From Rhodococcus globerulus NBRC 14531 (GTDB lineage: Bacteria > Actinomycetota > Actinomycetes > Mycobacteriales > Mycobacteriaceae), in assembly GCF_001894805.1 (NCBI RefSeq), contig NZ_BCWX01000002.1, forward strand, positions 496,001 to 560,000: 64,000 nucleotides of DNA. The letters are read 5' to 3'. This document shows positions 1 through 63,275 of this stretch, one piece after another. Within the stretch, counting starts at the first letter, position 1; each line of letters starts with the position of its first letter. Both the position numbers and the translations under genes were made by a program. The notes under the pieces are model-generated. The model searched no databases and was not told the origin of the DNA. It saw only the letters and a program-made list of their open reading frames with translations.

Positions 1-1013
1 CGCTGACACTGCTCGTGGCTGCGGTTCCGGAAGCCAAGCGCGCCATGGCAATCGGCATCTGGGGTGGAGTATCGGGGCTCGGTATCGCGATGGGTCCGGT
101 GGTGGGCGGCGCTGTGGTCGACGGTTTTTCGTGGCAAGGGATCTTCTGGATCAACGTGCCGGTAGCAATCGTCGCAGTTCCGCTCGCAATGTATGCACTG
201 CGCGAATCGACCGGGCGGAAGCAACCTTTGGACGTCGCCGGGGTCGCGCTGGCCGGACTTGGTGTGTTCCTCGCTGTCTGGGGCATCGTTCACGGAAACG
301 ACGACGGTTGGGGTTCCTTCGGTGTTGTCGCATCGCTGGTGGGTGCCGTAGTTGCCTTGGGGCTGTTCATCGTTCGCGAACGAACCACGTCGCACCCCGT
401 GATGCCGTTGCGTCTGTTCCGATCCAGAAGCTTCTCGATGGCAAACGTGATCGGACTGACCTTCTCGATCGGCATCTTCGGTGCGGTGTTCCTGCTCTCG
501 CAGTACCTCCAGATCGCGATGGGGTTCACACCGTTCGAAGCCGGGTTGCGGACGCTTCCATGGACCGCGGCGCCGATGGTCTTCGCCCCGATCGCGGGCT
601 TCCTCGCCCCGAAAGTGGGACTGCGGCCGCTGCTTCTCACCGGTCTCGGTCTACAAGCCGGCGCGTTGTTCTGGTTGGCTGCTCGCATCGGTCCCGACGC
701 CACGTACGCGTCACTCGTCCCCGCACTTCTCATGGCCGGAATCGGCATGGGGCTGACCTTCGCGCCCAATGCCACCGCGGTACTCGTCGACATGGACGCG
801 CCGGATCACGGCACGGCCAGTTCGACCAACGCAACACTTCGCGAGATCGGCGTCGCATTGGGAATCGCAGTCCTGACAGCGGTGTTCCTGGCCGCAGGTG
901 GAGCGTTGACGCCGCTGGGATACAGCGAAGCACTGACGCCGGCCCTGCGAGTCGGCGGATGTTTTGTACTGGTCGCGGTAGTGGCGGCATGGTTTGTGCC
1001 GACTCGGAAGTGA
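1..1013 (+). CDS. MFS drug-efflux transporter, DHA2 (EmrB/QacA-like), 5' end outside window
   Basis: This is the C-terminal part of a multidrug-efflux permease of the major facilitator superfamily; the gene starts before the window and is open from base 3. The visible ~336 residues contain the glycine-rich helix typical of 14-TM DHA2 pumps (GLGIAMGPVVGG), followed by WQGIFWINVPVA, a cytoplasmic linker and about nine further hydrophobic helices. Such proteins exchange protons for lipophilic drugs at the inner membrane. It ends at TGA 1013, five bases before a long hairpin, and converges on the ferritin-like gene. The exact substrate and subfamily cannot be told from half a protein; EfpA is a possibility but I see no specific support. 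Confidence 0.85.
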   Translation, partial: LTLLVAAVPEAKRAMAIGIWGGVSGLGIAMGPVVGGAVVDGFSWQGIFWINVPVAIVAVPLAMYALRESTGRKQPLDVAGVALAGLGVFLAVWGIVHGNDDGWGSFGVVASLVGAVVALGLFIVRERTTSHPVMPLRLFRSRSFSMANVIGLTFSIGIFGAVFLLSQYLQIAMGFTPFEAGLRTLPWTAAPMVFAPIAGFLAPKVGLRPLLLTGLGLQAGALFWLAARIGPDATYASLVPALLMAGIGMGLTFAPNATAVLVDMDAPDHGTASSTNATLREIGVALGIAVLTAVFLAAGGALTPLGYSEALTPALRVGGCFVLVAVVAAWFVPTRK

Positions 1014-1017
1014 GTTT

Positions 1018-1065
1018 TGCTGTGCGCCTTTATCAACCGCGGGCGGTTAATGAAGGCGCACAGCA
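1018..1065. terminator. Bidirectional hairpin between convergent genes
   Basis: Two 13-base arms, TGCTGTGCGCCTT at 1018-1030 and its exact complement at 1053-1065, enclose a second perfect 6-base stem (AACCGC/GCGGTT, 1035-1040 and 1043-1048). The structure fills the whole space between the MFS stop codon and the stop codon of the minus-strand gene at 1066-1068. It has no U tract on either side. It most likely terminates transcription from both directions. Confidence 0.75.
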
Positions 1066-1512
1066 CTATTCGCCGGGAAACGCCGATGTTGCGGGAGTTG
1101 TCCCGAGTGCGAGGTTCCAGCCGGCCCCGCGGATCGAGGCGTCTGTGAGCGCCTCGACTCCGAAAGTGCGGAGATCGTCGGAATCGGCCTGTTCGATCAA
1201 CGCGCGATACGCAGCCGCGGTATCGGCTTCGATCTGTGCCGCCAACTGCGCCGCCGTGATGGCGTCGGTGACCGGGAAAGGGATGTCGTAGCCGGCGGCG
1301 GCAATCGGGGGAGTGAGGCCCGCGTCGACGGCGATGACGGACAGAGCGTCACGGCGCGCCCGGTGGGTTGCCATGTGGGTGGCAACCTCGCTGGCCCGAG
1401 CCGGGTTGGAGAACGCTGCGACGACGCCGTAAGCGAAGATTGCGGCGTTCTCGGATTCGATGGCGTCGAGCACGGCTGAATCACTGGTTGTCGATGTGCG
1501 CAGAATGCTCAT
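1066..1512 (-). CDS. Ferritin-like DUF4439 family protein
   Basis: A 148-residue alanine-rich helical protein of the DUF4439 ferritin-like type, homologous in position and character to the conserved pair next to rimP/nusA in mycobacteria. The first helix carries the acidic stretch AIESENAAIFAYGVV and a later helix has QIEADTAAAYRALIEQ, spacing reminiscent of a carboxylate-bridged helix bundle; I did not confirm metal ligands. The ATG at 1512 is chosen because it overlaps the stop codon of the upstream gene (ATGA, 1509-1512), which implies translational coupling. No signal peptide is seen, whereas its partner is a lipoprotein. The function is unknown. Confidence 0.75.
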   Translation of the reverse strand: MSILRTSTTSDSAVLDAIESENAAIFAYGVVAAFSNPARASEVATHMATHRARRDALSVIAVDAGLTPPIAAAGYDIPFPVTDAITAAQLAAQIEADTAAAYRALIEQADSDDLRTFGVEALTDASIRGAGWNLALGTTPATSAFPGE

Positions 1513-2012
1513 GGCAGCAGTACCGCCGTCTGGGTGGCGCACGCCGCGCTGATCGAACCGAGCAGTCCGGCGCGATAGCCCGATGTCGTCCGAGCGAGAT
1601 CGGCAGCGCTGCGAGCGGACTCCGCTAACGACGCCCGCACAGCGTCGATCCCCGCGGGCGCTGCGGGTGCGGTCGACGACGCTGACGGCGTTGACGTGGT
1701 GCCGGCACCCCCGCCTGCCGCTCGCGCGATCTCGGCGTCGAGGGCATCGGCATGAGCGGTGCGCTCCGCGCTGATCGTCGTGAGCGCGGCAACACGTTCC
1801 GGTGCGAGCGCGATCGAATTGCTTGCAGCGGCGGCGTCTGCTCGTGCGCGATCGGCCTGCGAGGTCAGCTGGTCGACTTCTACGGCGGCCTGGGCGGAGC
1901 CGTTGTCAGTACACGCTGTGGCCGCGAAGGCGATGGCGCCGATCGACGCCGCACCTGCGATCTTCAGCGCACTCCGGCGGGAGTGGGAGGTGGTGGATAG
2001 GGGCGTCAGCAC
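1509..2012 (-). CDS. Alanine-rich lipoprotein, partner of the ferritin-like protein
   Basis: A 167-residue exported protein. The N terminus has a twin-arginine pair followed by a hydrophobic stretch (SRRSALKIAGAAS) and a lipobox ending in TAC, so it is probably a membrane-anchored lipoprotein, possibly Tat-routed. The mature part is Ala/Ser-rich and helical, with a flexible Ser/Thr/Pro/Gly patch in the middle. GTG at 2012 is preferred over an in-frame TTG at 2057 because it gives a compact signal peptide. The gene overlaps the ferritin-like gene by four bases and is divergent from rimP. Mycobacteria carry an equivalent two-gene unit beside rimP-nusA. The role is not known. Confidence 0.7.
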   Translation of the reverse strand: MLTPLSTTSHSRRSALKIAGAASIGAIAFAATACTDNGSAQAAVEVDQLTSQADRARADAAAASNSIALAPERVAALTTISAERTAHADALDAEIARAAGGGAGTTSTPSASSTAPAAPAGIDAVRASLAESARSAADLARTTSGYRAGLLGSISAACATQTAVLLP

Positions 2013-2280
2013 TCGTCCATGGTGCCAGGTACCGCGCGATTCGTTCGAATCAGGCAAACGTGTTCACGTGTGATGTGTAACGGTCGGTCTGGTCGCAGGC
2101 ATCTCGAAGGGGCGGTACTCTTGGATGCTTGGCCGGACAGTGTGGCGAATGGTGTCTTTGGCATGCCCACAAACTGGGTACCTGCTACTTCGAGACCTGC
2201 ATCACACAGGCCTGAGCCACACAGACTGACAACACCGAGTCGATGCGAGTCGACGACAACTGAAACGAGGAGTTCGCGAG

Positions 2281-2886
2281 ATGCCGGTGCCATCCAAGGA
2301 CAGGGTTATCGAGCTGGTCTCCGAACTCGTGCAGTCCAAGGGCTACGACGTCGAGGACGTCGTAGTCACTAATGCGGGCAAGCACAGCGCCGTTCGCATC
2401 ATGGTCGACAGTGACGCCGGTATCGAACTGGATGCCGCTGCCGAGATCAGTCGGCTCGTCTCCGAGTTGTTCGACAGCCTCGAGGAAATCGGGGAAGCGC
2501 CGTACACGCTCGAGGTCACGTCGCCCGGGATCGATCGGCCGCTGACAGCAGAGCGACATTGGCGTCGCGCACGTGGGCGCAAAGCACGCATCGATCTTGC
2601 CGACGAGACCGTCGTCGGTCGAATCGGTGTCCTCGGCGAGGATTCGGTTGCAGTGGTGATGAACGGTCGCGGCGGGCTGACAGTCCGCGAGATACCACTG
2701 GCAGACGTGCAGAAAGCTGTTGTGCAGGTCGAGTTTTCGAAGCCGAGCGACGCAGAGCTGGAGCTTGCCGGAGGAATCCCGGAGGGTCGGGCAGTGCATA
2801 CGGACCTCGACGAGTCCGATGCACAGGTGCTCGATTCCGAAGAAGACGTAGAAGACGTAGATAACGAAGAAGGGTTCGACAAGTGA
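2281..2886 (+). CDS. rimP: Ribosome maturation factor RimP
   Basis: RimP helps assemble the 30S subunit. The 201-residue protein has the expected N-terminal alpha/beta domain followed by the signature around [11 protein letters not shown] (about residues 80-90) and the SH3-like C-terminal domain. It is longer than most RimP proteins because of an acidic tail rich in Asp/Glu (about residues 180-201), encoded partly by a short GAAGACGTA duplication. ATG 2281 follows a purine-rich stretch (gaggagttcgcgag). Its stop codon overlaps the GTG start of nusA, the standard rimP-nusA-infB operon arrangement. The 268 bases upstream hold the divergent promoter region; I see no strong additional element there. 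Confidence 0.96.
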
Positions 2887-3914
2887 ATATCGACATTGCA
2901 GCGTTGCGAGCGATCGAGGCCGAAAAAGGCGTCCCGATCGAAACGGTGATCGCCACGATCCAGACTGCGCTGCTGACGGCATACCGACACACCGAGGGCC
3001 ACAAGCAGAACGCTCGGATCGACGTCAATCTCAAGACCGGATCGGTGCGAGTCATGGCTCACGACACCGACTCCGACGGAAATATGGTGGGCGCCGAGTG
3101 GGACGACACCCCCGAGGGCTTCGGCCGGATCGCGGCGACCACCGCGCGTCAGGTGATTCTTCAGCGTCTGCGTGATGCCGAGCACGAGCGCAGTTTCGGC
3201 GAGTACTCGACGCACGAAGGTGAAATCGTTGGTGGTGTGATCCAGCGAGACACCCGCGCGAACTCGCGTGGCATGGTTGTCGTGCGAATCGGCAGCGACG
3301 CGCATGGCACCGAAGGCCTGCTCCCGCCGGCCGAGCAGGTTCCGGGTGAAAGCTACGAGCACGGCGAGCGCATCAAGTGCTACGTCGTCGGGGTTGCCCG
3401 CGGCGCGCGCGGCCCGCAGATCACGCTGTCGCGCACCCACCCGAACCTGGTTCGGAAGCTGTTTGCGCTCGAGGTTCCCGAAATTGCCGACGGCAGCGTC
3501 GAGATCATCAATGTTGCCCGCGAAGCTGGTCACCGTTCCAAGATCGCAGTTGCGTCGCGCGTTCACGGGCTCAATGCGAAGGGTGCATGCATCGGTCCCA
3601 TGGGGCAGCGCGTGCGTAACGTCATGAGCGAACTTGCGGGCGAGAAGATCGACATCATCGACTACGACGAGGACCCCGCGACATTTGTGGGCAACGCACT
3701 CTCTCCGTCGAAAGTGGTCTCCGTCACTGTTGTCGACCTCGATGCCCGTGCAGCTCGGGTTATCGTGCCTGATTTCCAGCTGTCGCTAGCCATCGGCAAG
3801 GAGGGTCAAAATGCCCGCCTTGCTGCACGGTTGACCGGTTGGCGTATCGATATTCGAAGCGATGCAGCACCGGTCGACGACGCGTCGGATCGCTCCGGCG
3901 CGTCAAACGGATAA
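2883..3914 (+). CDS. nusA: Transcription termination/antitermination factor NusA
   Basis: NusA binds RNA polymerase and controls pausing, termination and antitermination. The 343 residues cover the N-terminal RNAP-binding domain (starts [17 protein letters not shown]), an S1 domain and two KH domains; the KH2 part contains [20 protein letters not shown]. The C-terminal acidic repeats found in proteobacteria are absent, which is normal for actinobacteria. The GTG at 2883 overlaps the rimP stop, so the two are coupled. ylxR follows after 44 bases. Confidence 0.97.
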
Positions 3915-3958
3915 CGGTGGAATGCAGTGTTCCAGACAGTTCGACGGTAGAGTAGACG

Positions 3959-4309
3959 ATGGTTCGACGTGAGTCCTCGGATTTTGCGCGCGCGACGCCC
4001 GGTTCGCCGGTCAGAACGTGTGTGGGATGCAGGGAACAAGGGTCGGCTGCCGATCTGTTGAGGGTCGTGGTTGGTGGGCAGGGGCCGGAGGGTTCCCTGC
4101 TTGTCCCCGACGTATTGCGAAGGCTCCACGGTCGAGGTGCATGGCTGCACCTGGATCCGAGTTGCCTGAGCCTGGCAGAGCGGCGCCGAGCATTCAGCAG
4201 AGCACTGCGAGTGTCCGGAAATCTGGACACGTCCGCTGTCGACCAGCTGGTCGACGCAGTTCACACAAAAGCAGTACCTCTCGAGAAGAACAGGCACAAG
4301 CACTCATGA
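3959..4309 (+). CDS. ylxR: YlxR family RNA-binding protein (DUF448)
   Basis: A 116-residue nucleic-acid-binding protein of the YlxR family, which sits between nusA and infB in most Gram-positive genomes. The diagnostic motif PVRTCVGCREQG is at about residues 18-29 and the central GRGAWLHLDPSCL follows near residue 78. The C-terminal third is basic. Reports in other bacteria describe RNA binding or a nucleoid-associated regulatory role; nothing here refines that. It is co-oriented with nusA and infB. Confidence 0.92.
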   Translation: MVRRESSDFARATPGSPVRTCVGCREQGSAADLLRVVVGGQGPEGSLLVPDVLRRLHGRGAWLHLDPSCLSLAERRRAFSRALRVSGNLDTSAVDQLVDAVHTKAVPLEKNRHKHS

Positions 4310-47527: not shown

Positions 47528-48688
47528 CTATTCGGCAAGATCTTCGGCTAGATCGAATGCGCTGAGAATCGTTCGGAACTTGGTACTGGTTTCACGCAAT
47601 TCCGTATCGGGATCTGACGACGCGACGATTCCGCCACCGGCATAGGCCTTCGCCGAGAGGCCGTCGGCCGCGATCTCAGCGCATCGGATGGCAACCATCC
47701 ATTCGCCGTCGCCGGTCCGATCGCACCATCCGATGGCACCTGCGTAAAAGCCACGATCGTCCTCGGTCCCGGTGATGTGATCGCGAGCGGCATCGGTCGG
47801 TGTTCCGCAGATCGCCGGAGTGGGGTGCAGTGCAAGCGCGAGCTCCAGTGCCGTTGTGTTCGGGTCGGCCAGTACCCCTTCGATCTTGGTTCCGAGGTGC
47901 CAGAGTTGAGGCGTGCGGAGCAGTTCGGGAGTGCTTGGCGCTGAGAATGATCGGCACAGCGGTCCGAGAACCGCGCTGATCGAATCGACGACAAATTTGT
48001 GCTCGGACAAATCCTTGGTGGACGCCAGGAGTTCCTGGGCGTGTGCTTCGTCTTGCTTCGAATCAGGGTGTCGTGCAATCGAACCTGCGAGCGGGTGGCA
48101 GGTGACGATGTCTCCGCGGCGTTCGATCAGGACTTCCGGCGTTGAACCGACCAAAGCGCGCCCGCGGTATTTCCCGCCGGCGGGGGAGAGGTCTACGCAG
48201 AACCCGTTGTGCGAGTGATCGAGCGAGATCAATTTTCTCGTGAGTGCTGTGGGCGAGATCGGCGATTCGGTTGCGATCGCGAGCGTGCGTGCGAGAACAA
48301 CCTTGTCCAGTTCGCCGGCCTGCAGTCGCGTGATCGCACCGCGAACTCGCCGGGTGTGCTCGAGAGGGCTTGGTTCGCATCCGGCAACTTTCGCGGAAGG
48401 AAGATTCACCGCACCGGAGTGATGGAGATCACCCCTCGTTCGGGTGAAACTCAGCGGCGCGGTGAGCGCGCACGGTGTTGAGGGAGCGAAGGGGAGGGCG
48501 CCCACAACCGAGTCGATCCGCCCTGTCTTGAGTCCCTCTACAGCGTCGAACGCCGAGTCGAATTCTTCCACCACTCCGGAGGTCTGAACCGAGGTCTGCC
48601 TGCGGGAGAGCAGGAAAACTGAATCCGCTCCGTTGTCAGATCGGTTGGTGTGCAACGGGTATTCGGCGACTTCGGCCAGTGCAAACAT
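47528..48688 (-). CDS. entC: Isochorismate synthase (siderophore type)
   Basis: Converts chorismate to isochorismate, the first step to 2,3-dihydroxybenzoate. The 386-residue chorismate-binding enzyme has AGELDKVVLARTLAI, the active-site stretch CHPLAGSIARHPD, the ALHPTPAICGTPT block and EWMVAIRCAEI with YAGGGIVASSDP. ATG 48688 follows GGAAGGG. It is transcribed away from the aryl carrier protein gene across a region with two probable iron boxes. The next enzymes (isochorismatase, dehydrogenase, DHB-AMP ligase) are not in the window and may lie past base 64000. Confidence 0.93.
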   Translation of the reverse strand: MFALAEVAEYPLHTNRSDNGADSVFLLSRRQTSVQTSGVVEEFDSAFDAVEGLKTGRIDSVVGALPFAPSTPCALTAPLSFTRTRGDLHHSGAVNLPSAKVAGCEPSPLEHTRRVRGAITRLQAGELDKVVLARTLAIATESPISPTALTRKLISLDHSHNGFCVDLSPAGGKYRGRALVGSTPEVLIERRGDIVTCHPLAGSIARHPDSKQDEAHAQELLASTKDLSEHKFVVDSISAVLGPLCRSFSAPSTPELLRTPQLWHLGTKIEGVLADPNTTALELALALHPTPAICGTPTDAARDHITGTEDDRGFYAGAIGWCDRTGDGEWMVAIRCAEIAADGLSAKAYAGGGIVASSDPDTELRETSTKFRTILSAFDLAEDLAE

Positions 48689-48739: not shown

Positions 48740-48789
48740 GTTGTGCGAGATTTGTGTGTCCAGTTTCAAGTTGGGTACCAACGTACCAA

Positions 48790-48808
48790 TATGGTTAGGC
48801 TGGCCTAA
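48790..48808. promoter_or_regulatory. Probable IdeR/DtxR iron box upstream of the ArCP gene
   Basis: TATGGTTAGGCTGGCCTAA matches 15 of 19 consensus positions, including GGTTAGGCT and CCTAA. It lies 35 bases before the aryl carrier protein start, where an iron-loaded repressor would block the promoter. Confidence 0.75.
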
Positions 48809-48842
48809 AGTCATTCCGTATTCGTACTATACGAGGAGATCG

Positions 48843-49073
48843 ATGAGCAGCACTGTGGACCGGGCCCGGATTGTGCGTGACGTTGCCGAAGTTCTGTCGA
48901 TGAGGGCAGAACAACTCGGCGACGACACGGATCTGACCAATGAGGGCCTGGACTCGGTGCGGCTCATGATGCTGGTCGAACAGTGGCGCGCCGACGGAGC
49001 GGATGCAGATTTTGCCGTGTTGGCGGAAGAGCAGACCGTCAATGCATGGGTTGAGGTTCTCTGCTCGCGGTAA
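48843..49073 (+). CDS. Stand-alone aryl carrier protein for dihydroxybenzoate
   Basis: A 76-residue carrier protein. The phosphopantetheine site is in NEGLDSVRLMMLVEQWR, where DSVR with Leu/Met after it is the aryl-carrier form seen at the C terminus of EntB/DhbB. Here it is not fused to an isochorismatase. It would be charged with 2,3-dihydroxybenzoate by a ligase encoded elsewhere and passed to the first condensation domain of the NRPS. ATG 48843 follows GAGGAGATCG. The phosphopantetheine is presumably added by PptT (11680). Confidence 0.87.
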   Translation: MSSTVDRARIVRDVAEVLSMRAEQLGDDTDLTNEGLDSVRLMMLVEQWRADGADADFAVLAEEQTVNAWVEVLCSR

Positions 49074-52800: not shown

Positions 52801-55800
52801 GCGGAGGTTCTGGGACGGGACCGAGTTGGTGTCGACGAGGACTTCTTCGGTCTCGGTGGTGACAGCATCACCGCCATCAGCGTCAGTAGTCGGCTACGTG
52901 TGCGCGGAGTGCTCATTGCTCCGAAAGAGCTTTTGGCGCAGCGCGATTTGGGGACCATCGCAGCGGCGGCCCGCGAGGTCGCCGACGATGACAACCGCGC
53001 CGCTGCTGTAGTCGACGTAGCGACCGGCTCAGTGATCGCACCACCGATCGTGCGCGCATTGACCGACAAGAACCCCACCGACGAGTCCATTGCCGGTTAC
53101 GCACAGTGGACCGCTGTGCGTATCGACGAGATGGTCGCGTTCGACGACATCCGATCAGGGGTCCAGACGATCCTCGATCGCCACGATGCACTGCGACTTC
53201 TACTGCGACGGGGAACTTGCGGCGCCGCCACCGAATTGATCGTTCGTGACTCGGGTGCCGTGCGCGCAGAGGGGCTCGTGAGTGAGATCGCGGGAAGTGC
53301 TGACACTGAACTGATCCAGCGCACCGCCGAAGCAGCTGCGGCGCAACTCGATCCGCGTGCAGGCAATCTCCTGCGCGTCGTGTTGCTGCGAACCCCAACC
53401 GATCAACCGGATCAGTTGATCGTCATTGCGCACCACTTGATCGTCGACGGCGTTTCCTGGCGGATTCTGCTTCCCGATCTGCACGAGGCAACTGATGCTG
53501 CGCGCGAACGTCGATCCGCCACGCTCGGCGTCTCAGGTAGTTCGTGGCGTCGGCACGCGGGCGTGCTCGCGGAGTTCGGGGTCTCGGGCACACTGCGATC
53601 CGAACTCGACTACTGGAAGACCGCCGCCGGCATCACGGCAATCGGCGGTGGAGGCGCTGCTCCGATCGGCGCTCGTCGACTCGACCCCACGACGGACACC
53701 GTGAGTACCGCGGCCCGCACCACAACCGTAGCGTCGGCAGCAGTGACCGAAGCGGTTCTGACCACGCTTCCTGCGGCGTACCGAGCGCGGGTAGACGAGG
53801 TATTGCTGGCAGCGTTGATGTTGGCGTTGCGTTCGTGGCAGAACAGTCGTGGGCACGAATTGGGTCACACGCAGACGGTGACCGTCGAAGGACACGGCCG
53901 TGATCCGCTGACCGAAGACACCGACTTCGCCGGAACGGTCGGCTGGTTCACCAGCGAGTTCCCGGTATCGGTGCCCACCGACGCGATTTCGAGCCGCGAC
54001 GCACTGACCGACGCTCTGAGCGGTGGCGCGGCGGCCGGAGATCTGCTGCGTAGCGTCAAGGAGGCGAAGCGCGCTGTTCCGGGCGGGGGCGTCGGCTACG
54101 GGGTACTTCGCTACCTCGATCCTGTTGCGGAACCGGAATTCTCCGACGTCGTTGAGCCTGAACTTCTGCTCAACTATCTGGGACGCTTCCCGTCGTTGCC
54201 GGGAACCGGGTGGAGGCTACCCGAGCATGACGCATTCTCCGTGATCGAACCGGCATCCAAGGCGATGTCGGAAGTGTTGGCGCTCAATGCGTTTGTTCGC
54301 GAAGACGGTGACCCCCAATTGGCTGTCGAGTGGACGGCAGCGGGCCGGGTGTTGGACGCCGCGATCGTCGATGAACTGCACGGACATTGGGACCAAGCTC
54401 TAGCGGCGCTCACCGCGCATGCAGCGCTGTGTGCCGGCGGGTTGACCCCCTCCGACTGCTCGGCTCATTGGGTCGATCAGGACGGCATCAATGAACTGGA
54501 GTCGGTTCACGGCCCGCTCGCCGATCTTCTTCCGTTGTCCCCGTTGCAGGAAGGGTTGCTGTTCCACGCCGTTCGAGATGGCGTTGCGGACGTCTACACT
54601 CTCACTGCTCGTTTTGATCTCACCGGACCGCTGGACGACGCGCGGCTGGCCGACGCATTCGAGACGGTCATCGACCGGCATCCGAACCTGCGCGCAGCGT
54701 TCCACTACGAACAGTTCGATCGGCCGGTGCAGGCAATTCCGCGTTCGGCCAAGGTCGCCTGGCGATCGGTCGATCTGACGGCGGTACCGAAGGCGGCAGC
54801 ACTGCGTTCGGCGCAGCGCCTGGAGGACGAGGCTGCCGAGCACATCTTCGACGTCGGACTGCCGCCGCTGCTGCGCGCCCTACTGATTCGTCTACCCGGT
54901 GATGTCCATCGGCTGATCCTCAATGCGCATCACCTGCTCACCGACGGCTGGTCCACGCCCATCGTCCTGCGTGAATTGATGAACGTTTACCACGACGGTG
55001 ACGCCGGTCTGCCGACGCCGACTCCGTACGGCGACTACCTGGCATGGATCGCCGACCGCGACGAGGATGCGCAACGGGCAGCGTGGAGCAAGCGTCTGCG
55101 TGGGCTGACCACTCCGACGCTCGTTGCTGACGGACAGTCGGAACGAGGCGTGCCGGTGCAGGTTCCGGTACCGCTGTCGGACACGGACGCCTCGGCGCTG
55201 ATCGAACTCGGACGCACCCGCGGTTTGACTGTCAACACACTGGTCCAAGGGGCCTGGGCTGCAGTCCTTGCCGAGCTGACGGGGCAGTGGGACGTTGTTT
55301 TCGGAGCGACAGTCTCCGGTCGTCCCGCCGATCTTTCCGGTGTGGAAGCTATGGTCGGATTGTTCAGCAACACGATTCCAGCGCGGTTCGACATCGCTGC
55401 CGACGTGCCTCTTCTCGAGCAGTTTGCCGGTTTGCAGAACGCACAATTCGATATGCAGGAGGTCGAGCACGCCAGCCTGGCGGAGATCGAGCGAATCGCG
55501 GGAATCGGGCAAATGTTCGACACACTTCTCGTTTTCGAGAATTTCCCGAATTCCGGAGCTGGCCAGCCCAGCTCGCACGAGCTGCGCGTCAGTAGCTTCA
55601 CGAACCGTGGTGTCACGCACTACCCGATGACGCTGATGGCACCGCCGAGCCTGGGCCTCGATCTTGTGCTCTACCACGATCCTGTTGCCATTCCCGCAGA
55701 CACCGCTGCGCGGGTGGTGACGCGATTGGGTGAGATTCTGGGCGGTGTTGTTCATTCGCCGTCGTTGCCCGCGGGGGACCTCCTCGACGTCGTGAAGCGC

Positions 55801-58800
55801 GTTTCGATGCGCAGACCTTCCCCGGCGCCGATCAAGTCGGATGTGGCAGCGCCTGGTGCCGTGGATCCTGTCGTCGTGGACGCACTGTGCCGTTGCGCTG
55901 CAACGGTGTTGGATCTTCCCGTAGTGAACCCGGCTGATAACTTCTTTGCCCTCGGCGGTCATTCGCTGACCGCTATGCGTTTGGTGGGAAGCCTGCGCAA
56001 GCTGGGCTTACGCGTATCGGTTTCGGATGTGTTCGATACGCCGACCCCGTTGGGGCTGGCCGGCGTCGCACGGATTGACGACACGAAGTTCGTTGCGCTC
56101 GAGCTGGACTCGACCGTGGCAGCGCCCGTGGACGTTGTCGGGGATCAGAGCGAGGCGCCGCGCGGCGGCGCCGAGCCGGGAAATCCTGACGACGAAAAGT
56201 ACTGGGTTCAGGTGCTCGGCGGTCTGCCGTTCGACGTGGATCTTCCCTACGATCGAACTCCGTCCCCGGCGTACCGTGCCCACACGTACATTCGGCAGCT
56301 GGGCGAAACCGTCGACCGGGATTCGATGCTGCTCGCTGCAGTTGCCGCCGCGCTGAGTACCTTCGGTGCCGGCCGCGACATAGCGGTCGGATTGGTCGAC
56401 GCCGAAGCGGAGTCGATCATCCGGGTCGATCTGAGCGGCCGACCGACCTTTACCCAGGTCGTGGACCGGGTCGAGAACGCCATGTCCGGCGCCGGTTTGC
56501 ATTCCGACGTGAGTCTCGATCGACTCGCGAACCTACTGGATCGTTCTCGGGCAAGTCTGTGTGCCGCTCGCGTGGGGCGTGCCGACGCAGTCGTCGATCT
56601 CGAGTTTGTGCGCGCTGGTTCCGAGATTCACCTGACCGTCAATGCCGAGGTGTACGACGGATCCACCGCGGACGCCCTCCTCGACACCGTGATCTCGGTA
56701 CTCGAGCGCGGCGCCCGGCACGGGGACCTTCCCGTTCCCGAATTGCTGCCGACGGTGGCTCGTCCGCATAACGACCCACCGCGGCGAGTTGACGCTCCAG
56801 CGGGAATATCGATCCTGTTCGAGCGGAATGTCGTCGCAGCACCCGACGTCATCGCGCTGGTCTCCGGCGAGTCGACGCTCACCTACCTCCAATTATCGCG
56901 CCGGGTGGACGAATTGGCGCGCGAACTTGTTGCCGCCGGTGCCGGGCCGGAGCAGGTTGTTGCCGTTGCCCTCGACCGATCCGTGGATCTGGTCGCAGCA
57001 CTGCTGGCTGTTCTGCGCGTCGGCGCGGTGTACCTGCCACTCGATGTCGATTATCCGGCCGAGCGGCTCGAATTCATGATCGAGGACGCGGCACCTGTTT
57101 GTGTTCTGACGAGTTCCGATGTGGCAGGGCAACTTCCCTCGACTGTGTCCGCGGTGGTGCTCGTGGACACAGCACGGACGAGTTCCGATGTTGTTCTTGC
57201 AGAACCGCGACCGGCCGGTGAGCACCTTGCCTACGTCATCCACACCTCGGGTTCGACGGGTCGACCCAAGGGAGTGATGGTCAGCACTGCCAATCTCGCG
57301 GCGTTCGCCGAGACTGTGATCGGCGATCAGTGGATCAGGCCAGGCGATCGCATTGTTGCGGTGACGACGGTGTCGTTCGATATCGCCGCGCTGGAATTGT
57401 TGTGTCCGCTGGCTGCCGGTGCCACCGTTGTGCTCGCCGATCGGGGGACGGTCCGTGATCCGGATGCCCTGCTCGAGTTGATCACGCAAAGCCGTGCCAC
57501 CGTCATGCAGGCAACTCCGTCGCTGTGGCGAGTTGTCACGGAACACGAGAATGCGCATCGCCTTCTCCAGGTTCGAGCGTTGGTGGGTGGAGAAGCACTT
57601 CCGCAAGACCTGGCCGATGATCTGGTGACATTCTGCCCCTCGGTGCGCAACGTGTACGGACCCACGGAAGCGACAGTGTGGGCGACATCGGCGGTACTCG
57701 ATCGCGATGATCGGGTCACGATCGGGCGACCATGGACCGACGTCCACGCACGGGTACTCGACGACGATCTGCGGAACGTTCCGGAAGGTGTTGCAGGCGA
57801 GCTGTACCTGGGCGGTTCGCAGGTGGTACGCGGATACTTGAACCGACCCGATCTGACGGTCACCAGGTTTGTGGCGGATCCGAGCGTGCCGGGCGCCCGC
57901 CTGTACCGCACGGGTGATCTGGTTCGACGCAGGAACGGTGTGTTGCATTTCTTGCGACGTGCGGACGATCAGGTGAAGGTCCGCGGGTTCCGTATCGAAC
58001 TCGGTGAGGTCGAGGGCGCGCTCTGCGGTGTGAGTGGTGTATCTCGAGCGGCAGCCACCGTCCGAGTAGATGCGGCAGGCATCGGAAGTCTGCACGGATA
58101 CGTGGTGGCTCAAATCGGTACCGGCCTCGATTCGGCTTTGGTTCGCAAGGAAGTTGCGCTGCTGCTTCCCGAACACATGGTGCCGCAGACACTGACGGTG
58201 CTGGATGCGCTTCCGTTGACGCTCAACGGAAAAGTCGACCGCAAGGCGCTTCCCGAAACGGCGCCGGATCGGTTGCGGCACCCCTTGGTGACCGTCGACT
58301 CCGATCGGCGGATACGTCTCGACATTCTCAGTCCGGGTTGGCGGGATGTGTTGCCTCTCGGTCCGTTGCAGGAAGGCATGTACTTCCAATCGGTACTCGA
58401 CGGTGCCGGCGGCACTGACGTCTACCACATGCAGCCGAAATTCACGTTCTCGGCGGAGGCCGATGTGGACATTTCTGCGCTGCGCGCGGCGGGTGATGCA
58501 CTTCTGCGCCGCTACCCGAACCTGCGTGCCGGCTTCACTCACGCCGGGTTCGACGCTCCGGTTCAGTTTGTTCCGCTGGCAGCCTGCATGCCTTTCCGGG
58601 AAGTTGACCTGAGCACTACTCCGGTCGGCGAGATCGAGGGTGCAGTACAGGCACTCGACGAAGAAGAGTTCGCCACCGTCTTCGATCTGAGCGCTCCACC
58701 GCTGATCCGAATGGTTCTGGCGTGGTTGCCGGGCGGCGGCGCGCATCTCGTTTTCACCCAGCATCACTTGCTGACCGACGGTTGGTCGCAGACGCTGATG

Positions 58801-61800
58801 TACGCGGAACTGTTTGCGCTGTACGAATATGCTCGTTCGAACGGCACAGATCCGGTCCACCTCGACTCGGCGTTGGAAACTCCGGCGGATTTCCGTGATC
58901 ACCTGCGCTGGATCGCCGAGGCAGATCGCCCGGAGGCTCTTTCGTCGTGGAAGAACTATCTGGCAGACCTCGAACAGCCGACGCTTGTCGGCGGCACCGG
59001 TTCCGGCGGTAGTGCGCCTCTTCCGGTGTTCACGCGAGTTGTGTTGGAACAGAGCATCAGTAGTGACGTACGGGACCTTGCGCGCAGGACCGGTGTGACC
59101 CTGTCTACGGTTGTCTCCGCGGCCTGGGGACTGGCTCTGCGAGCAGTGACCGGTCGTGACGACGTGGTCTTCGGTTCTACGGTGTCCGGGCGTACGCCTG
59201 AGGTGGACGGCGCGGACCGCATGGTGGGTCTGGCGCTCAACACCATTCCGGTGCGCATGAATGTTCGCCCCGGGGAGCGGATCTCCGACCTCCTCGGACG
59301 GTTGTTCCGCGAGCAGGGTTCACTCCTCGAACATCACCATGTGGGTCTCGGCGACGTTCAGCGCGCGGCCGGATTTGCCGCACTGTTCGACACGCTCTAC
59401 GTTTTCCGTAATACCCCTCGCGACGAACAGGCACGCCAGGACACGTTCGGGCGCAGTGGAATCGTCGGATTCGACGCGGTGGACGGCACCCACTACGCGC
59501 TCACACTCGATGTTGATCCCGGTGGGGGTGACGCGTCGATGGCGCTTGTTCTCGAGAACCGGCCGGATCTGGTTCCGGGCGATGTGGCGCACGACGTTCT
59601 GGCTCGTACCGAAGCCATCCTCGAACTGATGGCGCGTTCCGAGGCGGCGACAGTGGCCGACACGGCGGTTCCGCGCGCCCAGACGCCCACCGAGTTCGTG
59701 TCGCAGCACGTCACTATGCCCCTTCCCGGAGAGCCTGGCGGCAGCGTCGACGCGTTGCTGCGAGAACGCGCGTTGGCGACACCGGACGACACCGCACTCG
59801 TATTCGGCGATGTCACGTTGAGCGCTGCGCAGATGAATACGCGAGTTGATCGGTTGGCGCGAATACTTGCGTCGTCCGGCGCTGGGCCGTCCGGCGTTGT
59901 TGCGCTTGCACTTCCGCGGACAGCGGATCACGTGGTGGCGATCTTTGCCGTCATGCGAGCCGGAGCTGCCTACCTTCCGTTGGATCTGGCGCATCCCGCC
60001 GCCAGGCTGCGGGAGTTGATCGAAGACAGCAATGCGGCCGTGGTGATCACCACCGCCGATCAACACGATCTCGTCGCTGCCGAGGGTCGGACAAGCATTG
60101 TCATCGACCTGCCGAACATCGTTGACATTCTTGACGGCCGCGCCGAGACACCCACTGTTGCCGATGCAGCGGTAGGCGGTCCGACATCGGCGGATCAGCC
60201 TGCCTACGTGATCTACACGTCGGGCAGCACGGGCAAACCAAAGGGCGTCGTGGTGGGCCACCGCGGCCTGACCACGATGTACCACAACCACAAGGCCGAA
60301 ATCTTCACGCCGGCCGAAAACAGCGCTGCCGGGCGACGATTGCGCATCGCGCACACGGTGTCCTTCTCCTTCGACATGTCGTGGGAAGAACTGTTCTGGC
60401 TCCTCGCCGGTCATGAGGTTCATGTGATCGACGAGCAGGCACGGCTGGATCCGGTGTCGTTGGTCAAGCACTACCAGTCCGTCGGCATCGATGTGGTGAA
60501 CGTGACGCCCTCGTATGCACGGGAATTGATGGCGGCCGGACTTCTCGACGGTGATCACACTCCGGCGCTGGTCATGCTCGGCGGCGAAGCGGTTCCCGCG
60601 GAATTGTGGTCGCGGTTGCGTGATCAGGACGGCGTCGACGGCTACGACCTGTACGGCCCCACCGAGTTCACGATCAATGCGATGGGCTCGCCAGTTCGGG
60701 CAAGTGACACCCCGTGCTTGGGGCGGCCGATCCTCAATGCGTCGGCGCGGGTGCTTGATTCAGGCCTGCGCGAAGTCCCGCTAGGGGCGGCGGGGGAGTT
60801 GTACATGTCCGGTGACGGAACAGCGATGGGCTACCTCGATCGGACCGCTCTGACGTCGTCGGTATTTGTCGCCGACCCTTTCAGCGTCGGCGGGCGCATG
60901 TACCGGACCGGTGACGTGGTGCGTCGACGGCGCGACGGCGAACTCGAATACCTCGGACGCGCAGACCATCAGGTGAAGATCCGAGGAATCCGGATCGAGC
61001 TGGGAGAAGTGGAATCTGCACTGGCAGCGTGCCCCGGAGTGCTTCGCGCCGCGGCGACCGTTCGGCGTGACAACGGTTCGGCGCCACGGCTGATCGGCTA
61101 CGTGATTCCCGAAACGGGTTGTGCACCGGGAGACCTCAGGGCGGTCATGCGGGAACGTGTACCGGCGCACCTGGTTCCGTCGGATATCGTCACCGTCGCT
61201 TCGATTCCGCTGACACCCAACGGAAAGCTGGATCGAGCGGCCTTGCCCGCACCGCCGACCCGGGCAGCGGCACGCGCGCCTCGCACCGAAACCGAAAAGC
61301 AACTGTGCCAGGTCTTCGCGCATGTTCTCGGTGTCGACACCGTCGATCCGGAAGAGAGCTTCTTCGACCTCGGTGGAGACTCGTTGCGTGCCATGCGATT
61401 AGTGGGTGAAGTAGAACACGAACTCGGCGTCGGAGTGGGCGTGGGAACGTTGATGGCTCGCCCGAGCGTTGCCGAGCTTGCTGCTCATATCGCAAGCCCC
61501 CTTGACGTGGACCTCAGCCGTGATCACCTGGTGTCGCTGCGGGCCGAAGGCGCCGCCGAACCGTTGTTCTGTGTTCACCCTGCGGGCGGATTCGTGTGGC
61601 CTTTCGCACCGCTGACCGGGGTGCTCGAGGCTGATCGTCCGGTGTTGGGCCTGCAGTTGCCGACGCTCGCGGGCGACACTCTCGAAGCTACGAACGTGGA
61701 TCAACTTGCATCGATGTATGTCGAGACGATTCGCGGCGTGCAACCGGACGGTCCCTATCACCTCCTCGGATATTCGTTCGGTGGCAACGTCGTTCACGCG

Positions 61801-62262
61801 ATGGCTGCGCAGTTGGCGGAGGCGGGACACACGGTAGGATTCACCGGCCTGATCGACACCCACCCGCTCGGAACCAGGTCCGCTGAGAACCGGGAAGACC
61901 GCAGCATTGAACAGGACTTGGCAGCGGCACTCCCGCCGGAACTCCTTGCGCAGGCACCCGCCCTGGTCGAGTTGGTGCGAACCGGATTTGATGCCACTCG
62001 TTCACTGGCGTCGGGATCGGTGGACCCGAATTACGCCGGGTCGGTTACTCTGATCACCGCTGACACGGGTGTGTCCGGGGAAGTGCTGGCTGATCGCTGG
62101 CGCACAATCCGGGGGGACCAGGAACTTTCAGTCCACCACCTACCGTTCGACCACGCCGGATTGGTGACCCCAGCCGGTTGGGCGGCAATTGCGCCACTGC
62201 TCGACAGTCATCTGTCGCAGCCCACAAACCACACAGTTGGAAACACAATGGGAGTTGAATGA
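49810..62262 (+). CDS. htbG: Heterobactin-type NRPS (C-A-T-E / C-T-halfC-A / C-A-T-TE)
   Basis: A 4,150-residue siderophore synthetase. Domains (approximate residues): C1 18-455 (HHLIVDG 153); A1 475-985; T1 (Ser1019); E 1055-1530 (HHLIVDG 1208, GVGYGVLRY); C2 1572-2000 (HHLLTDG 1707); T2 (Ser2052); a C-terminal half of a C domain 2127-2318; A2 2336-2830; C3 2845-3280 (HHLLTDG 2985); A3 3310-3815; T3 (Ser3858); TE 3885-4145 (GYSFGG, Ser3989, His4115). My hand-read A-domain codes are DADDVGLVDK (acidic, Arg-like), DILQLGVVWK (Gly) and DMENMGLINK (hydroxyornithine). This predicts DHB-D-Arg-Gly-hydroxyornithine, i.e. heterobactin. A2 has no carrier domain after it and must load T2. GTG 49810 follows AAAGGA. 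Confidence 0.93.
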
Positions 62263-63275
62263 TGAAGTCCACACCGCCCCTCGCGATTCGAAGTTGGCGA
62301 CGATTCGTCGCGATTGCGGGTCTGTTGATCGTTGCACTCGTTGCGATGATCGGTTGCAGCAGCGCGTCCTCGGACGAGCCTGCAAAGGCAGACGAACCTA
62401 CGACGCGTGTGATCGAAACCGAGAAGGGTTCTGTCACCGTACCGGCGTCGGCAGAACGGATCGTGGTGCTCAGCGGTGGCCTCGCCGGTTACCTCTATGC
62501 ACTCGACGCACCCGTAGTCGCAACCGACACACGCGTTTTGGGTGTGACGAACCTCGACGGCGGCTTCCCGCCGGCGTGGGCAGCGGATGCAAAGGCCCAG
62601 GGCACCAAGGAACTGCCCGCCGGTGAGCAGCTCAACATCGAAGCCGTCGCCGCAGCTGCGCCCGACCTGATCATCGGTGGTGGACAGGGTGTCACCTCGG
62701 TGCAGGCTGAGGAGCTCTACGACCAGCTCACAGCAATTGCGCCGACCGTCCTCGTGCCGCGCACCGTTGCCGCATGGGACAAGCAGCTCGAGATCGTCGC
62801 CGACGCCGCCGGACGCTCCGACCAGGTTCCGGCTCTGATGGATGCATACGACGCCAAGGTCAAAGAGGTAAAGGGCAAGATCACCGTTCCCGAGGGCAAC
62901 GTCGTCTACATCCTCTCGCTCGCGAACAACAAGCCGTACCTCGTGCCGCCGACTGCCGCTCTGCCCGCAATGCTTGCAGAACTCGGATTCAAGGCCGACG
63001 ACGTCATGACCAAGGCCGGAAACCCGCAGCTCTTCGGCTCGGGTGACTCGTTCGAGGTCAGCCCGGAAATGCTCTCGCAGGTTGCCGACGCCCCTGTCGC
63101 ATTTGTCATTCCGGTATCCGGACGCCCGATGGCAGAACTTGCCACCGATCCGCTGTACTCGCAGCTTCCTTCCTTCAAGGCCGGAACGACGTTCGAGCTT
63201 CCCGCCACCAGCTACCGTCCTGACTACGACGGCGCAATGGCGACCCTCGACCTGATCGGTCAGACCTTCGCATGA
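62259..63275 (+). CDS. Siderophore-binding lipoprotein (FecB/FepB type)
   Basis: A 338-residue substrate-binding protein for a siderophore ABC importer. The signal peptide ends in a lipobox (AMIGCSS), so it is anchored outside the membrane. The two-lobed FecB fold begins with [18 protein letters not shown] and includes [18 protein letters not shown] 62259 overlaps the NRPS stop codon (ATGATG), with GGGAG upstream, so uptake and synthesis are translated together. Permease and ATPase partners are not in the window. The substrate is most likely ferric heterobactin. Confidence 0.9.

Follow-up and report, generated by a model that had tools for sequence, protein, structure and literature searches.

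HtbG, said to have been described by Bosello in 2013, is reportedly the heterobactin synthetase of Rhodococcus erythropolis PR4, and a C-PCP-A domain order was reportedly presented as unprecedented for this enzyme. Heterobactin contains one Gly. In HMWP2 (yersiniabactin) and VibF (vibriobactin), one A domain serves a carrier that does not directly follow it, and the X domain of teicoplanin synthetase is a condensation (C)-type domain with two full lobes that forms no peptide bond and recruits oxygenases. Partial C domains have also been described. In HcpA, the fungisporin synthetase of Aspergillus, a 177-aa incomplete C lies between A4 and A2 and an A-less C-PCP module is present elsewhere in the enzyme; the authors propose the degeneration of a complete C-A-PCP-C-A-PCP arrangement (PMC4041764). 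ThdA (thermoactinoamide) carries a truncated, probably inactive starter C ahead of an A domain, and this truncated C is reported to be capable of affecting A selectivity via its C-lobe at the interface (PMC7253712). Our literature search returned no paper on heterobactin together with PCP-A and none on C-PCP-A together with siderophore adenylation, and no mention of a half C was found in the part of the heterobactin literature examined, which consisted of papers other than the primary HtbG description.

Domain order and siderophore context of the NRPS

The window, that is, the whole 64,000-nt stretch of Rhodococcus globerulus NBRC 14531 DNA analysed here, contains one NRPS with the domain order C-A-T-E-C-T-hC-A-C-A-T-TE, on which our own HMMs and Pfam agree (Table 1). 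This domain map bears out the C-T-A order that the preliminary description had claimed for module 2, with C2 followed by T2, a partial C domain (hC) and A2. Only three PP-binding stretches are detected by Pfam, and since the protein has as many T domains as A domains (three each), the sole carrier remaining for A2 is T2. As for the gap between A2 and C3, previously put at about 40 residues without a carrier, the absence of a carrier was upheld but the length was not, being about 27 residues; no Pfam family was found when this linker was scanned alone.

Table 1. Features of the NRPS locus, with nucleotide positions counted in the window and residues counted in the NRPS
Feature	Window position	Residues	Strand	Evidence
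HtbG-like NRPS, 4150 aa	49810..62262		+	HMMs, Pfam
C1		16-447	+	HMM
A1		472-977	+	HMM
T1		987-1055	+	HMM
E		1077-1550	+	HMM
C2, HHLLTDG intact	54523..55782	1572-1991	+	HMM, motif
T2, GGHSL carrier, ahead of A2	55879..56070	2024-2087	+	HMM, motif
T2-hC linker, fast evolving; site of C-domain N-lobe loss	56071..56187	2088-2126	+	
hC, condensation-domain C-terminal lobe, trimmed and lacking HHxxxDG	56188..56763	2127-2318	+	
A2, code D-I-L-Q-L-G-V-V-W from motifs	56806..58263	2333-2818	+	HMM, motif
A2-C3 linker; site of the carrier (T2b) of relatives	58264..58344	2819-2845	+	HMM, alignment
C3, HHLLTDG intact	58345..59664	2846-3285	+	HMM, motif
A3		3312-3816	+	HMM
T3		3826-3894	+	HMM
TE		3916-4134	+	HMM
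Chorismate-binding enzyme (probably isochorismate synthase), siderophore context	47528..48688		-	
Stand-alone carrier domain (probably aryl carrier protein)	48741..49073		+	
Periplasmic-binding-type protein (probably siderophore uptake)	62259..63275		+	

The A2 code reads D-I-L-Q...V-V-W in 25 of 26 proteins, and the remaining one (L040) has the close D-M-L-Q...M-V-W. The A1 code differs at one position between the NRPS types, and the A3 code is constant where present (segments were read by eye, the motif pattern having caught a shifted start). The motif codes of A2 and A3 fit glycine and hydroxyornithine, respectively, and are taken as such, and A1 is taken as arginine. Neighbours typical of a catechol siderophore are present beside the NRPS, namely, a chorismate-binding enzyme, a carrier protein, a binding protein and an MFS protein. 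HtbG, as reportedly described, and the window NRPS are alike in the C-T-A module 2 and the siderophore neighbours and, if these assignments hold, in their Arg-Gly-hydroxyornithine type codes; the window NRPS is probably an orthologue of HtbG. HMWP2 and VibF differ from the window enzyme in that they have no half C and their carriers lie downstream of the A domain.

A trimmed C-terminal lobe between T2 and A2

Residues 2127-2318 had been described from the letters as the C-terminal half of a C domain lacking both the N-terminal half and the HHxxxDG motif. Profile comparisons agree: the start of hC coincides with the first residues of a C-terminal lobe, and neither a match to the N-lobe of a condensation domain nor HHxxxDG was found between T2 and A2. 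On its own, hC matches Pfam Condensation (PF00668) with E 6e-6, the best stretch being profile positions 193-277; its scores of 25.6 and 27.2 bits are below the Pfam cut-off of 30.6, so annotation at that cut-off could miss it. The orthologous segments match the same family in 10 of 10 cases (best E 3e-7), and the hC profile aligns with the C-lobe of the full C domain (Cx) found at this site in relatives (hhalign 99.8%, E 2e-30; 10 hC vs 11 of the 16 Cx). Against the PDB, C domains were hit at E <=0.01 in 10 distinct sequences, with the X domain 4tx2 as the top match (E 3e-13, chain residues 203-353), followed by PCP-C didomains; 4tx2 is a full two-lobe domain, whereas hC matches only part of its C-lobe. 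Chance similarity was rejected because all ten members match Condensation, and an assembly error because ten genomes each have a single open frame across T2-hC-A2.

The segment is not, however, the intact C-terminal half that it was first taken for. Relative to Cx, internal pieces of ~13 (8 in one subclade), 17-21, 4 and 24-32 residues are missing, with some difference between two alignments. None of the 10 hC retains the GYFVNT-type segment, RHPLFQ has likewise lost its RH, and the subclade L035-L039 retains five residues missing from the other hC. The larger lost pieces presumably correspond to the floor loop and the latch, which contact the N-lobe.

We identified hC in the window and nine other genomes of the genus, with a long orthologous match (E 1e-60 or better) in 10 of the 28 genomes of the genus; the weaker matches in this search are C domains of other NRPSs. 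A family-wide search with hC recovered the same 10 among 401 genomes at E 1e-12, and a class-wide search with a T2-hC profile recovered, among 345 genomes, just that of the window at E 1e-30; in both searches six candidates were scored for each genome. Beyond these ten, no genome searched reached the thresholds for hC, and scanning genome contigs with the hC protein yielded no relative. The contig scan with the T2-hC alignment retained 80 loci (best E 1e-13), mostly with T2 alone matching, and these loci, a pool biased towards T2-like carriers, served only as ordinary modules and outgroups. All loci collected form a non-random pool that includes 256 full C-A junctions; within it, only these ten proteins have an A domain preceded by a partial C, taken as a match to <70% of the model that begins beyond position 120.

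hC is retained in 10 of 10 orthologues and is their least conserved domain, with 53-59% identity vs 80-85% for the A2 core (eight of nine orthologues). Where Cx is conserved (89 columns, each shared by at least 10 of 11 Cx), the ten hC are identical at 29, identical in part at 21, replaced at 24 and deleted at 15. Across six pairs, the dN/dS of hC is 0.20, 0.24, 0.26, 0.20, 0.37 and 0.14, that of the T2-hC linker in the same pairs 0.50, 0.50, 0.65, 0.57, 0.20 and 0.35, and that of the A2 core 0.10-0.18, as estimated by a simple counting method from pairs that are not independent. The hC ratio is thus 0.14-0.26 in five of the six pairs and, again in five pairs, lower than the T2-hC linker ratio; the exception is L036-L038, a pair with few changes (0.37 vs 0.20). 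In the short hC-A2 and A2-C3 linkers the ratio is equally low (0-0.31), so that a low ratio alone is no proof of a folded domain.

These data bear on the reading of hC as an unused deletion scar, tolerated as a spacer in a place where any flexible linker of that length would do. The loss of the N-lobe and several internal segments, the low rank of hC in conservation, its long stem branch (see below) and the equally low ratios of the nearby short linkers would fit such a scar; the ratios of hC in five of the six pairs, the 29 invariant Cx-conserved columns, the retention in every orthologue and the high-confidence predicted fold, albeit from an alignment rich in C-lobe-A pieces, argue against it, and we consider it quite unlikely. 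Judging from the sequences, hC is under purifying selection and does not look like a decaying scar.

The AlphaFold2 model of hC-A2 has a pLDDT of 91.6 and a pTM of 0.85 (98 aligned rows). Of these rows, 88 are C-lobe-A pieces from NRPSs with a full C, which favours the usual packing; packing of hC on A2 is therefore expected from this alignment and is not independent proof. In a single superposition, hC and A2 together fit EntF over 694 residues at 3.4 A (from chain residue 185) and Txo1 over 596 residues at 2.9 A; the superposition on SrfA-C covers 679 residues at 6.7 A (from residue 191), and the highest-Z structural matches cover A2 alone. hC is thus predicted to fold and to pack on A2 as in C-A didomains. 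Of the structural expectations in the preliminary description, the C-lobe fold and packing of hC-A2 were reproduced in this model, whereas the T2-hC-A2 prediction from the 10 orthologues alone reached a pLDDT of only 43. Its suggestion of a structural cradle is supported in part, by the purifying selection and the predicted C-A-like packing, the latter with the qualification that the fold alignment itself contained C-A didomains; this support bears on the fold and packing of hC rather than on the reach of A2 to T2. The deletion-scar and cradle readings are mutually compatible.

Relatives with a complete module and the origin of hC

Relatives were collected by searching the 401 family genomes with the T2-C region of one relative, with three candidates scored in each genome. 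Eighteen genomes reached E 1e-75; 16 of these were read, and two weaker ones (G380 and G354) were left out. Fourteen NRPSs (L040, L168, L169 and L180-L190) have the order C-A-T-E-C-T-C-A-T-C-A-T, with a complete C-A-T (Cx-A2-T2b) between T2 and C3, hereafter the C-T-[C-A-T] type. The other two, L191 and L192, are C-A-T-E-C-A-T-C-A-T-C-A-T without a TE, combining the complete C-A-T with an additional A domain in module 2. In the fourteen relatives, and likewise in L191 and L192, the hC site is occupied by a full C (HHIA[IVF]D) and the A2-C3 site by a carrier (GGDSI). In 14 of 14, C2 and Cx retain their HH and T2 and T2b their serines, so both neighbouring modules look usable despite just one A; these fourteen NRPSs have three A domains for four carriers (T3 is out of view in L186).

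A TE is present in eight of the fourteen and was not seen in five (L181, L182, L184, L187 and L189), and L186 is irregular after C3. L032, L033 and L034 also have no TE, and a tail like the HTVGNTMG that follows the window's TE comes directly after T3, as if the TE had been excised in frame. In L040 (genome G002), the NRPS gene shows a frame change within the end of the full C (~10200-9900, minus strand), and its two parts were read apart.

In the C-lobe tree, built from 93 of 162 prepared rows (C1, C2 and C3 were limited to nine loci, and of the 60 unrelated rows 20 were dropped), the 10 hC and 16 Cx form one group with SH-aLRT 100, outside C1, C2 and C3; the stem branch of hC is long (0.96). 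A foreign insert was rejected by this grouping. The A2 domains also form one group (SH-aLRT 99; A tree, 11 proteins). T2 is on average 49% identical (40-68) to T2 of 13 relatives and 40% (33-49) to their T2b. Furthermore, the window A2-C3 linker aligns with the stretch that follows T2b in the relatives (LVTVD; clearest in L190). The grouping of hC with Cx, the pairings of A2 and T2 and the kept piece ahead of C3 together indicate that the N-lobe of Cx and T2b were lost and two modules fused. As read from these sequences, C2-T2-hC-A2 is the merger of an A-less C2-T2 module and a Cx-A2-T2b module. The earlier proposal of a deletion scar from a merged C-A-T module is strongly supported, since relatives keep the full C-A-T and hC groups with its C.

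The order could instead have arisen by recombination, with a foreign T or C-A piece brought in rather than a deletion. T domains are short, the ranges of T2-T2 and T2-T2b identity overlap, and NRPS genes recombine often. Part for part, the window module nevertheless matches that of the relatives (T2 with T2, hC with Cx and A2 with A2), and the piece that follows T2b is preserved ahead of C3, which makes recombination very improbable.

All trees were quick ones, and that of the first five domains, rooted with ten outgroup rows, carries a long-branch warning among the outgroup. In this tree, all ten hC proteins form one clade and the root has the C-T-[C-A-T] type on either side, which is most simply read as a single origin of the half C from the C-T-[C-A-T] type. 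In L191 and L192, module 2 holds a second, unrelated A domain (A2a; aa ~1990-2475 of the NRPS frame) with intact motifs; its branch length of 2.31 (A tree, with a long-branch warning) fits gain or loss of an A alike. The two-A order of L191 and L192 was weighed as the ancestral state, but given the position of the C-T-[C-A-T] type around the root, a gain in L191 and L192 is cheaper than several losses, and an A may have been gained there into an A-less C-T module.

Proposed loading of T2 and contraction of the module

hC is a remnant of the Cx of a former module, and we think it probable that it has been retained as the structural part of a C-A platform from which A2 would load the upstream T2. 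Relatives have the order C-A-T-E-C-T-[Cx-A2-T2b]-C-A-T; in the window lineage, the whole N-lobe of Cx and T2b have been lost, once on the tree, and the C-lobe of Cx has stayed and has lost further segments, the GYFVNT-type motif among them. hC would hold A2 as C-lobes do and tether the T2 linker, and A2 would activate glycine and load T2, which lies ahead of it, by a backward swing. C2 would then join the upstream acyl-arginyl group to Gly-T2, and C3 would take the chain from T2 and join hydroxyornithine, with a product that, like heterobactin, would contain a single Gly. The equal numbers of A and T domains make A2 the simplest candidate for charging T2.

Alternatively, T2 might be loaded in trans by the A2 of another HtbG, or by an A domain elsewhere, hC being irrelevant to loading. 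A T2 placed before hC and A2 is an unusual geometry, the same T2 stands without an A of its own in the fourteen relatives, and the A-less C-PCP of HcpA is proposed to be served by an A domain from another part of that protein (PMC4041764). Trans loading is nonetheless unlikely in our view: the A and T numbers of the protein match unaided, and the neighbouring A in L168, the one relative tested, is most like a DHB-AMP ligase (TIGR02275 best, under the cut-off).

A more tentative proposal, which we hold to be less likely than not, is that in the ancestor and the fourteen relatives the glycine A domain might charge both T2 and T2b to give Gly-Gly, and that the window lineage might have shortened its siderophore by one residue through deletion of half a C and a carrier, with the C-lobe kept as a backward-loading scaffold. 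A literature search for fuscachelin with Gly-Gly returned nothing.

An incomplete C at a merged module is already in print for the fungal HcpA, as far as the available portion of that paper goes, where the remnant lies between two A domains, in contrast to the bacterial window enzyme with its remnant between T and A; in the same portion, the complete parts are represented only by an enzyme without the remnant, and no tree or selection test was found there (PMC4041764). ThdA and the window NRPS are alike in having a truncated C before an A, but the available portion of the ThdA description places it in an N-terminal starter module with no preceding carrier (PMC7253712). The present case adds the bacterial T-halfC-A order and extant relatives in which the parts are complete, together with a tree and a test for selection.

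The loss of a module with function retained is an open question in NRPS evolution and engineering. In this family, the states before and after the merger both survive in living relatives, and the cut points are fairly closely readable, at the boundary of the N-lobe and C-lobe and, for the excised carrier, between the end of A and the piece that precedes C. The leftover hC, which is under selection, marks a cut that nature has accepted, and backward loading across a half C domain becomes directly testable. If the proposed shortening of the siderophore is true, it would represent a natural module contraction without a change of specificity.
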